From Candidatus Poribacteria bacterium (GTDB lineage: Bacteria; Poribacteria; WGA-4E; GCA-2687025), in contig VGLH01000008.1 of the NCBI GenBank assembly GCA_016866785.1, positions 1 to 55,020 of the forward strand: a stretch of 55,020 bases of DNA, written 5' to 3'. Of this stretch, positions 2,587 through 11,431 are shown piece by piece. Position 1 is the first letter of the stretch; each line of letters starts with the position of its first letter. Both the position numbers and the translations under genes were made by a program. The notes below the pieces were generated by a model. It made no database searches and was not told where the DNA came from. It saw only the letters and a program-made list of their open reading frames with translations.

Positions 2587-3564
2587 TCAGATCGTCTCGT
2601 AGGCGACCTGGACCACGGCTCCGGTCTCCGACGAGTCGCGGATCGCCTCATAGAGAACCATGCTCCTGTAGCTTTCGGCGATGTTCGAGCGAGTCGTCCT
2701 ACCGTCACGGATCGCTTCGACGAAGTCGATGATTTCCGCCAGGTGCCCGGTGTCGAGTCCGCTGTCGCCGGAGCTGGTGAACGTCGAGGGTTCCCGCCAT
2801 TCCGTCGGTACGCCGTCGGCGGTGATCCGCCAGCGTGAGGAGTTCGAGATCGTCATGAAGTTACCGCCCCGCGCGGTGAGCTCGACCTCCTCGGTTGGGA
2901 CGCGGAACGATCGACCGTCGTTCAGGTTCATCGACCCGACCGCGCCGTTGGCGAACCGGATGCTCACGGCGTAGGCATCCTTGCCCTTGGAGAACGCGAA
3001 GACCTCCGACGCGTCGCCGAACAGATAGCCCACCAGGTCGATAGCGTGAATGGCGAAGTCCAGCAGGAACGACGTGCGGAGCGATTCGTTCGAGTATTGC
3101 GCCGAGGCGTAGTCCACCGAGAGGGAGTACAGGTCGGACGGATCGAACGACTCGATCCACTGCTTCGCGCGGGCGTAGGCGGCCGAGTAGCGCTTCTTGA
3201 ACGCCGTCATGCAGAGCCTGCCGGTCTCTTGGGCGACGCGGGCAACCTGCAGCGCGTCCTGAGCCGTTGGAGCCGGCGGCTTCTCCGTGTAGACGGGGAA
3301 TCCGAGCCGGAGGACCTGCGGGGCGAGCGCCGCGTGTCCTTCGGGTCCGACGCAGATGATGACGCCGTCGGGCTCCTCGGCGTCGAGCATCGCCGTCAGG
3401 TCGGTGTAGGGCATGCCGCCGAAACGCCGAGCGTTCCGTGCGGCGCGCTCTGCGTCGAGGTCGCACACGCCGACGAGCTGGGCTCCGGCAGCCCCGACGT
3501 AGGGATAGATCCGTTTCGTCGAGAGGCTGCCGGCTCCGATGATGCACAGGCGAACGTCGTCCAT
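2587..3564 (-). CDS. Gfo/Idh/MocA family NAD(P)-dependent oxidoreductase
   Basis: A 325-residue sugar or inositol dehydrogenase-like enzyme. The N-terminal Rossmann fold opens MDDVRLCIIGAGSLSTKRIY, with VGVCDLDAERAARNARRFGG as the beta-2/alpha region that sets cofactor choice. The family signature EKPPAPT occurs near residue 95, followed by MTAFKKRYSAAY. The C-terminal alpha/beta domain (residues about 125-325) has DFAIHAIDLVGYLFG, matching the conserved helix with catalytic-site His. The start is 5 bp from the stop of the upstream Trx/PDZ gene, and the amidohydrolase follows by 10 bp, so the three are likely one operon. The substrate cannot be told from sequence. Confidence 0.9.
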   Translation of the reverse strand: MDDVRLCIIGAGSLSTKRIYPYVGAAGAQLVGVCDLDAERAARNARRFGGMPYTDLTAMLDAEEPDGVIICVGPEGHAALAPQVLRLGFPVYTEKPPAPTAQDALQVARVAQETGRLCMTAFKKRYSAAYARAKQWIESFDPSDLYSLSVDYASAQYSNESLRTSFLLDFAIHAIDLVGYLFGDASEVFAFSKGKDAYAVSIRFANGAVGSMNLNDGRSFRVPTEEVELTARGGNFMTISNSSRWRITADGVPTEWREPSTFTSSGDSGLDTGHLAEIIDFVEAIRDGRTTRSNIAESYRSMVLYEAIRDSSETGAVVQVAYETI

Positions 3565-3569
3565 GGTGC

Positions 3570-4850
3570 CTATTCGTCCCCGACCAGAGGCAGCGTCAGG
3601 TTGACGCGCTTGCCTTCACGAATGACGACGACGGGAACCGTGGTTCCCGGCTCGTAGTTGAGGCGTACGCGTGCGCTCAGCTTCTGGAAGCTGACGTGCT
3701 TCGAGTCGCCGTCGAACGACACGAGGATGTCGTTGTTCTGGAGACCCGCGCGCTTCGTCTCCTCGCGCGGGATCCACCGCACCTTCATGGCGAGAGCATC
3801 CGGCGCGAGCCCGTTGGCGAGGCGTTCCTCCGCCGACAGCTCCGGCGACCAGAAGCCCAGGTCGGGACGAAGTCCCCACATGGACGCCCGCCAGGAGATG
3901 TCTGTCTTGCGCCAGTCGCCGACGGTATTCAGCGTCGCCTCACGGTTCTTGCCGCCGCGCGCGTAGGAGACACGGAGCTTGCCTGGCGTCGGCAGGTTGT
4001 GCAGCACCCACGCGATATCCGCTTGGGAGATGATGGCTTGCCCGTTCATCATGCGGATGACATCGCCCGCCTTAAGCCCGGCTTTGTCGGCGAAGGAACC
4101 GCTCGCGACGCTCTCGATGACCGGGTCGTCATCGACCTTCATCGTCATGCCGACGTTCTCCGGCAGCGGGTAGACCCAGATGTCCTTCTTCTGGTCGAAG
4201 GACTTCTCGGCTTTGCGGACCTCCCGCGCGCCGTCGTTGAGCATGTGGCAGTGGATACAGCCTTCTTTCGCCTGCTCGCTGTTTGCGAGACGTTCGCGGA
4301 GCGAGGGCATGTCAGACACCGTCTTGAAGCGCGGGGTCGATCCGCGTTTGGCGGAGAAGAGGGCGCGGTTCTTCGGGTAGTCCTTGTGGAGCTCGAGGGC
4401 GCGGCGCATCGCCGTCGTGAGCCCCGTCAAGGAGAGATGATCCATGGCATCTTCGGACGCGCGGATACCGTAACGCCCGTAGATCGTACCGTCGGCGTTC
4501 ATGAAAAACGCCGCCCACGTGAGGTCGTAGTCGAACTGGAACTGAACCAGGTCGATTGTGTTCATCCGAACGATACGCACCGGCACGAAGAGCTTGGAGA
4601 GCTCCGTGAGCTCGTTGTCCTGACGAGCAACCTGCCCGTCAAATGCTCGGCATGCCAGTCAAGGCACGCATCGGAAGACGACGAAGAGCGGTTTGCCCTC
4701 CTGCTTCGCCCGCGCGATGCCCGCGTCGAGGTCGTTGTAGATCCAGTGATCGCCCACTTCCAGGTCGCCGAGCTCCTGCCGCAACACTTGCCCCTGGAGC
4801 GACATGGCGATCAGCAGCGCACACGCCGTCGCAGCCGCGAATCGTTTCAT
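3570..4850 (-). CDS. Trx/PDZ-domain selenoprotein with in-frame TGA (Sec64) and a CxxCH motif
   Basis: Read through one in-frame TGA at 4659-4661, this is a 426-residue exported protein. A signal peptide (residues 1-21, MKRFAAATACALLIAMSLQG) is followed by a thioredoxin-like segment in which KPLFVVFRCVP leads to the TGA as residue 64. This gives C61-V-P-U64, the selenium form of a CxxC redox site. In the same phase follow LACRAFDGQVARQDNELTEL and FDYDLTWAAFFMNADGTIYG, normal Trx-fold continuation. Residues 198-202 are CIHCH, a c-type haem attachment motif. PDZ-like domains lie near 227-310 and 345-420. Start ATG 4850 has a GAGAGGA site. Without recoding it would be called as an 85-residue fragment plus a GTG-started 338-residue protein lacking signal peptide and active site. 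I recall a Trx7/PDZ (seleno)protein family; the assignment is from memory. Confidence 0.85.
4621..4641 (-). promoter_or_regulatory. Bacterial SECIS-type hairpin just downstream of the Sec TGA
   Basis: In the mRNA sense (minus strand) the segment UGACGGGC - AGGUU - GCUCGUCA folds into an 8-bp stem with one G-U pair and a five-base loop. The loop A-G-G-U-U carries the GGU core seen in bacterial SECIS loops such as E. coli fdhF (AGGUCU). The stem begins 18 nt and the loop 26 nt after the TGA at 4659-4661, within the spacing typical of bacterial elements bound by SelB. It lies inside the coding frame, as expected for bacteria. Fold and spacing were worked out by hand. Confidence 0.75.
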
Positions 4851-10255: not shown

Positions 10256-11431
10256 ATGTCCGACCGACTGCGCATCGGGATCGTCGGCTGTGGTGGCATC
10301 TCGCCATCGCACATCCGCATCTACGCCGAGCATCTCAGCGAAGAAGCCGAGATCGTCGCCGTCTGCGACATCGACGAGGCGAAGGCGCGGAGCCGGTCGA
10401 CCGTCGTGCGGGACACATACGCCAAGCGCGCCGAGGAGCTCGAAACACGCGCCGCCCAGACGGACACGACGGCGGCGTACGAGCGACGGAACCGCCAGAT
10501 CGAGGCGTGCCGCGCATCTGCCCGCGAAGCCGCCGTGTTCACGGACTACGAGAAGATGATCGCCGAAGCCGACATCGACGCCATCAACATCTGCGTGCCG
10601 CCGTTCGCCCATTCGGGCCCGGCAATCGCGGCGGCGCAGGCGGGCAAGCACGTCTTCTGCGAGGGTCCCATCTCCGGCAGCCTGTCCGAGGCGGACGCGA
10701 TGATCGCCGCTGCGAAGGCGCCCGGCGTCGTCTTCACCGTTCAGTACGGGCATACGCGGTTCCACCGGACGGCGATGATGGCGAAGCGCGCCATCGAGAA
10801 CGGCGACCTCGGCAGGATCATCATGGGGAACGTGGACGTCCTGTGGCACCGAGGGCAGGACTACTACGACATGGACGCCTGGCGCGGGACATGGAAGGGC
10901 GAGCGCGGCGGAGCCACCTACCACCACGGCCGCTACGCCATCGACCTCTATCTGTGGCTCATGGGAGCCGCGGACGAGGTCTACGCCCGCATGGGGACGT
11001 TCACGCACGACATTGAGGTCGAGGACACGTCCGTCGCGCTGCTGACGTTCGCGGGCGGCGCGTTCGGGCAGATCACAGCGAGCACGTCGGCGCATCCGAA
11101 CCCGAAGATGCCCAGTCAGCGCATCGAGATCTTCGGCGAACGCGCGTCGATCGCCGTCATTCCCGAGTACGCTATCGGCTCCGCCGAGAAAGGCTACGCG
11201 GAAGCTCTCGCAGCGAAGCTCGAACGCGAAACGCCCGCCGTAGGCACCGAGGGGATGCCAGGGCAGTTCGTCGACTTCATTCGGGCGATCCGCACGGGTT
11301 CCCAGCTCTTCATCTCCGGCGCGAGCACGCGTCCGCAGCTCGAAGTGACAAAGGCGATCTACAAGTCCGTCGAGACTGGGGCAGCCGTACGGCTCCCGAT
11401 CCAGCGGTACGATCCGTACTACACGCTCTGA
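10256..11431 (+). CDS. Gfo/Idh/MocA family oxidoreductase
   Basis: 391-residue NAD(P)-dependent dehydrogenase-like protein. The Rossmann domain starts MSDRLRIGIVGCGGISPSHI and continues with IVAVCDIDEAKARSRS. A roughly 45-residue basic helical insert (about 45-90: KRAEELETRAAQTDTTAAYE and following) separates it from INICVPPFAHSGPAIAAAQA. The usual EKP is replaced by EGPISGSLSEAD, so the catalytic-site lysine of the EKP motif is missing; this may change the reaction. The C-terminal domain has HHGRYAIDLYLWLMGAADEV. GGAGGGTTCC gives a strong ribosome site. It is paralogous to but clearly different from the gene at 2587-3564. Confidence 0.88.
   Translation: MSDRLRIGIVGCGGISPSHIRIYAEHLSEEAEIVAVCDIDEAKARSRSTVVRDTYAKRAEELETRAAQTDTTAAYERRNRQIEACRASAREAAVFTDYEKMIAEADIDAINICVPPFAHSGPAIAAAQAGKHVFCEGPISGSLSEADAMIAAAKAPGVVFTVQYGHTRFHRTAMMAKRAIENGDLGRIIMGNVDVLWHRGQDYYDMDAWRGTWKGERGGATYHHGRYAIDLYLWLMGAADEVYARMGTFTHDIEVEDTSVALLTFAGGAFGQITASTSAHPNPKMPSQRIEIFGERASIAVIPEYAIGSAEKGYAEALAAKLERETPAVGTEGMPGQFVDFIRAIRTGSQLFISGASTRPQLEVTKAIYKSVETGAAVRLPIQRYDPYYTL

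Follow-up and report, generated by a model that had tools for sequence, protein, structure and literature searches.

The window analysed here, a stretch of 55,020 nucleotides from a draft Candidatus Poribacteria genome, carries on its minus strand two reading frames that are separated by one TGA, and the question that this locus raises is whether the TGA ends the first of two genes or is read as selenocysteine (Sec) within a single longer one. We consider it very probable that the gene at 3570-4850 encodes a selenoprotein, predicted to be exported, and that it belongs to the NF041199 (Trx7/PDZ) family; this confidence refers to the selenoprotein nature and the family assignment.

One reading frame across an in-frame TGA

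When TGA is translated as U, the minus-strand frame from 4850 to 3570 gives a product of 426 residues with one internal TGA, at 4661-4659, which corresponds to residue 64. This translation bears out the sequence-only reading, which had described two frames in the same phase split by a single TGA at 4659-4661. The redox motif lies in the sequence context FVVFRCVPULACRAFDG, in which FRCVPU represents residues 59-64 and CVPU residues 61-64; the CxxU spacing proposed earlier is correct, although the TGA had been placed four residues after Cys61 and the actual distance is three. The features of this part of the gene are as follows.

3570-4850, minus strand: complete gene of the predicted Trx7/PDZ selenoprotein, 426 aa, stop codon TAG at 3570-3572; matches NF041199 with 470 bits over residues 35-421
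4659-4661, minus strand: in-frame TGA, probably read as selenocysteine 64; all Sec-encoding relatives share a TGA at this codon, and the Cys forms have a Cys codon instead
4668-4670, minus strand: Cys61, first residue of the CxxU motif; predicted Sec (TGA) at this position in most relatives of the class
4497-4745, minus strand: Thioredoxin_7 domain, residues 36-118 (Pfam PF13899, 3.2e-11)

In mechanical ORF calling, a first ORF stops at 4659 and a second begins at a GTG at 4586, so that the Thioredoxin_7 domain is cut at its active site; as had been foreseen, a pipeline that treats TGA as a stop splits the gene and loses that site. Taken at face value, the two ORFs that standard calling yields would be two separate genes, one for a short secreted peptide (4850-4659) and the other for a PDZ protein starting from the GTG at 4586. 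This reading is very hard to reconcile with a cut that falls inside the Thioredoxin_7 domain and removes the active site, with a family profile that runs unbroken across the cut, or with the coding-like GC3 of the interval from the TGA to the GTG, and we give it almost no credence. GC3 is high in both flanks and also across the 72 nt that separate the TGA from the GTG following it (0.84/0.71/0.85), as expected of one coding frame. The alignment to the NF041199 profile is continuous over the TGA, from residue 35 to 421, and the Thioredoxin_7 domain spans residue 64, which upholds the earlier proposal that the codons on both sides of the TGA belong to one thioredoxin fold. Our single-gene model corrects the standard call, which splits the gene at its active-site codon.

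Family assignment and earlier records

Against the cut-off of 300 set for NCBIfam NF041199, 'Trx7/PDZ domain-containing (seleno)protein', the full-length translation reaches 470 bits, and it covers model positions 1-389 of 390. In addition to exceeding the cut-off, it has the arrangement that defines the family, a Thioredoxin_7 domain followed by PDZ domains, with CxxU at the thioredoxin active site. The window gene shares with the family the domains over the whole length, the Sec position in CxxU and a bacterial SECIS element directly downstream, and we found no essential difference between them. Two VPGUxxT thioredoxin-like selenoprotein families (NF041382 and NF041383) have a related Thioredoxin_7-like domain with Sec; in these models the window protein reaches 39 and 30 bits, where 350 and 275 are required, and only its thioredoxin part is matched.

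The family is already known, and the window gene is a well-supported added member of it. The description of the gene as an unannotated selenoprotein consequently fails at the family level, since a curated model exists, reviews of 2022 and 2026 list the CxxU form, and the family can be traced to a survey of 2008. The 2022 review has the entry 'PDZ domain-containing protein, pfam13899, CxxU' (PMC9312934), and that of 2026 'Trx7/PDZ domain-containing protein, NF041199, CxxU, 1 Sec' (PMC13188914). A 2021 follow-up described a CxxC/U protein fused to PDZ (PMC9402790), which in our view belongs to this family. The CxxU protein reported as 'putative secreted serine protease MucD' in the 2008 Global Ocean Sampling survey (PMC2398784) very probably also belongs to NF041199, and the family was apparently first sighted in those ocean data under that name.

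The 2008 name raises the possibility of a MucD/HtrA-type serine protease containing selenocysteine, an idea to which the DegP/DegQ-like PDZ tandem lends some support. A Pfam search, however, returned no trypsin-like domain and identified the N-terminal domain as Thioredoxin_7, and HtrA family models match via the PDZ part only, far below their cut-offs; a selenocysteine-containing protease is therefore very improbable, and the lack of a protease domain suggests that the name MucD is misleading.

UxxU, CxxU and CxxC forms among relatives

The family was found in 25 of the 83 genomes of the window's class, at 33 places. Two TGAs are present at 26 of these places, in the UxxU arrangement in every sequence read, and within the class CxxU is restricted to the window, G004:C103 and G005:C12, and CxxC to three copies (L022, L024 and L040); the N-terminal part is missing at one place. 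A single genome, G005, has four copies, with no, one or two TGAs. The UxxU copies, including L019, L021, L023, L025-L039, L041 and L042, have two UGA codons nine bases apart and a single SECIS-like hairpin downstream.

Outside the class, we found among named genomes CxxU in two Planctomycetota (L069 and L071) and UxxU in Abditibacteriales and Armatimonadetes (L070 and L073). Among the Planctomycetota, 124 of 392 genomes match the family, and the 30 copies read comprise 14 CxxC, 9 CxxU and 7 UxxU. UxxC was seen in none of the copies read, within or outside the class, and a pattern scan of viral contigs returned no relative. Every relative examined has Sec or Cys at the codon of the window's residue 64, in agreement with what had been anticipated from an alignment of homologues. 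This distribution of UxxU, CxxU and CxxC, with no UxxC, indicates that predicted Sec at residue 64 is the stable feature of the Sec-encoding copies and that, among these, residue 61 is the one varying between Sec and Cys.

A further TGA in L040/L062 (G001) was considered as a second Sec site and rejected, because the sequence around it, in a CVPC copy, is out of frame. This CxxC copy (L062 1012-2331, G001:C29) has the out-of-frame stretch and the TGA in its first PDZ domain, in a frameshift-like arrangement.

The predicted UxxU state of the relatives is evident from their nucleotide sequences. UxxU with two Sec residues is known from a few bacterial families, e.g., Prx-like selenoproteins and metal-binding proteins (PMC9312934, PMC13188914, PMC2398784); these resemble the window's relatives in the motif but are different families, and the window protein itself is CxxU. 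For NF041199, the tables of the 2022 and 2026 reviews (PMC9312934, PMC13188914) contain CxxU only; the UxxU form that prevails among the same-class relatives is an addition to these tables, and the text of the NCBIfam NF041199 entry may already mention it. UxxU is thus the main form in the window's class and is frequent in Planctomycetota. The UxxU/CxxU/CxxC forms, with up to four copies per genome, constitute a natural series for asking what the second selenium buys, and the UxxU relatives offer a way to ask how one SECIS serves two nearby UGAs.

In the tree, the window adjoins a CxxC pair with weak support (60/29), and the minimum number of motif changes is four; from this tree, neither UxxU nor CxxU can be named as the ancestral form. 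We speculate that the family might at its root have been a two-Sec UxxU protein, periplasmic and capable of forming a diselenide, with one SECIS for both UGAs and a c-type haem on the same chain, and that the window might have lost the first Sec; we regard this history as unlikely.

A SECIS-like hairpin downstream of the TGA

The sequence-only reading had placed a SECIS hairpin right after the TGA, and the following element was located there.

4622-4640, minus strand: SECIS-like bacterial hairpin of 8 bp; its GGU loop, 4632-4630, lies 26 nt downstream of the TGA

A bacterial SECIS is expected to be a hairpin shortly past the TGA with a G starting the apical loop, and the GGU loop of the window has this form. 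All 8 of 8 pairs are formed in the window, a value that was reached in 0.3% of synonymous-codon recodings of the same residues. The fold energy of the window's 54-nt stretch was unremarkable against shuffles (z = -1.0), and tests for any hairpin against synonymous recoding were weak when taken sequence by sequence; pairing at a fixed position and covariation replaced the energy and any-hairpin tests as the evidence. Support for the hairpin comes from the comparison with relatives.

In the main comparison set, the stem of all 33 Sec-encoding copies occupies an identical position downstream of the second redox codon, with 7-8 of 8 pairs and a GGU loop (AGU once) 26 nt past the UGA. The three Cys copies retain 3-4 of 8 pairs at this position, and the stem is lost. 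Among 27 distinct sequences, 98.1% of the pair cells are standard, three pairs change on both sides and 17 cells are double changes. The covariation score was 0.293, compared with 0.146 for shuffled alignments, and none of 500 shuffles scored as high; when the partner was slid by 1-3 columns, the paired cells fell to 18-55%. Several Sec copies from Planctomycetota have a stem that is shorter or displaced by one base, with a loop of AGUU or similar. The 8-bp core at 4640-4622, with its compensatory changes in Sec copies and its loss in Cys copies, corroborates the hairpin first noticed in the window alone.

Selenocysteine machinery of the genome

The window's own genome is 95% complete and 3.4% contaminated, as a draft in 291 contigs. 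On one of its contigs, selA (551.8 bits) immediately precedes selB (342 bits), and the genome also contains selD (348 bits; L065, G000:C37:28420-29343) and the tRNA-Sec gene selC (78.8 bits, TCA anticodon); a look-up of these four genes had been suggested, and all were found. The catalytic site of SelD, CAGUASK, is likewise encoded with an in-frame TGA, so that selD is a second gene of this kind in the genome; SelD is therefore predicted to be a selenoprotein itself. Two identical tRNA-Sec genes (L003 and L004) lie at the ends of contigs G000:C41 and C76 and may represent one locus split by the assembly, or a repeat.

In the class, selA is over the cut-off in most family-carrying genomes. The carriers without selA over the cut-off are G034, G046, G076 and G080, which are drafts with UxxU copies, and G003, which is 61% complete and has CxxC only; G076 has a partial selA, and the missing genes may be assembly gaps.

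These results bear on a third explanation of the TGA, namely that a Cys gene (CVPC) acquired it from TGC or TGT by nonsense mutation or sequencing error, leaving a pseudogene or a wrong base. In its favour, CVPC forms (L022, L024 and L040) occur within the same family of genomes, and the assembly, with its 291 contigs, is a draft. Nevertheless, TGA occupies the same codon in many independent genomes, the frame is intact on either side of it, the hairpin is kept in the window and absent from Cys copies, and the Sec machinery is complete, with SelD itself containing a TGA; we thus attach very little probability to mutation or error. The presence of Sec or Cys at residue 64 in homologues, the SECIS-like hairpin and the presence of selA, selB, selC and selD together sustain the CxxU selenoprotein originally proposed; neither of the two refuting outcomes that were checked, a genome without these genes or homologues with some other residue at this position, occurred. 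The comparison supports a mechanism in which SelB with Sec-tRNA would insert selenocysteine at UGA codon 64 under the guidance of the hairpin, whose start lies 18 nt further downstream.

Domain architecture and possible function

The remaining features of the protein are as follows.

4791-4850, minus strand: residues 1-20, probably a signal peptide or membrane anchor; MKRF leads into a hydrophobic stretch; AlphaFold helix 2-27
4245-4259, minus strand: CIHCH, residues 198-202, candidate c-type haem attachment motif or metal site; invariant in 29/29 aligned proteins and in 30/30 Planctomycetota copies read
3927-4148, minus strand: PDZ domain 1, residues 235-308 (Pfam PDZ_2, 4.4e-18; DegP/RseP-like in Foldseek)
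3588-3764, minus strand: PDZ domain 2, about residues 363-421, a second PDZ stretch

The charge and hydropathy profile makes a signal peptide likely. Of the earlier statement that Sec, CxxCH and PDZ domains are combined on one exported chain, the predicted Sec site, the CxxCH motif (C198-H202) and two PDZ domains were confirmed, and export stands as likely. The AlphaFold model of the protein has a mean pLDDT of 87.8 and a pTM of 0.84. In Foldseek, the PDZ tandem is similar to that of DegP, DegQ and RseP; unlike these, the window protein has no protease domain. The middle domain, whose model is of low confidence (pTM 0.49), gave no structural match in a Foldseek search against the PDB.

From this composition, we consider it reasonably probable that the window protein has a thiol-redox function with PDZ docking. 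The mature protein is predicted to be a thiol/selenol oxidoreductase acting outside the cytoplasm, in which Cys61 and Sec64 would form a selenenylsulfide cycling against client disulfides or oxidised thiols, and the PDZ tandem would dock these client proteins. The CxxCH middle domain might hold a c-type haem or a metal, through which electrons would be supplied or removed; this is a guess on our part. CxxU would be one of three states, with UxxU and CxxC, between which the family moves.

C198, C201, H202 and H155 are invariant across 29 proteins, and ccmB- and ccmC-like cytochrome c maturation genes are present in the window's genome. The motif itself, earlier called a CxxCH haem motif, was correctly recognised as a motif, and haem may be attached to it. 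A TGA in a cytochrome c assembly match was considered as Sec and rejected, as it terminates the gene before it (ccmB by eye). These invariant residues, the CxxCH in 30 of 30 Planctomycetota copies read and the presence of ccmB and ccmC also allow for a different function, in which the selenoprotein would transfer electrons by means of a haem c instead of acting as a plain thiol-disulfide enzyme, and its selenenylsulfide site would swap electrons with a CxxCH haem, His202 and His155 being the candidate ligands. However, the domain, in its low-confidence model (pTM 0.49), resembles no solved cytochrome, and zinc or iron could sit on the same four residues; we hold this function to be conceivable but rather unlikely, and favour the thiol-redox function with PDZ docking.

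The neighbours of two relatives were inspected and differ from those of the window, and their comparison revealed no redox partner, client or conserved operon. In the window, two Gfo/Idh-type oxidoreductase genes were recognised by eye, at 10256-11431 (plus strand) and 2587-3564 (minus strand), and the latter starts no more than 6 bases from the selenoprotein stop codon.
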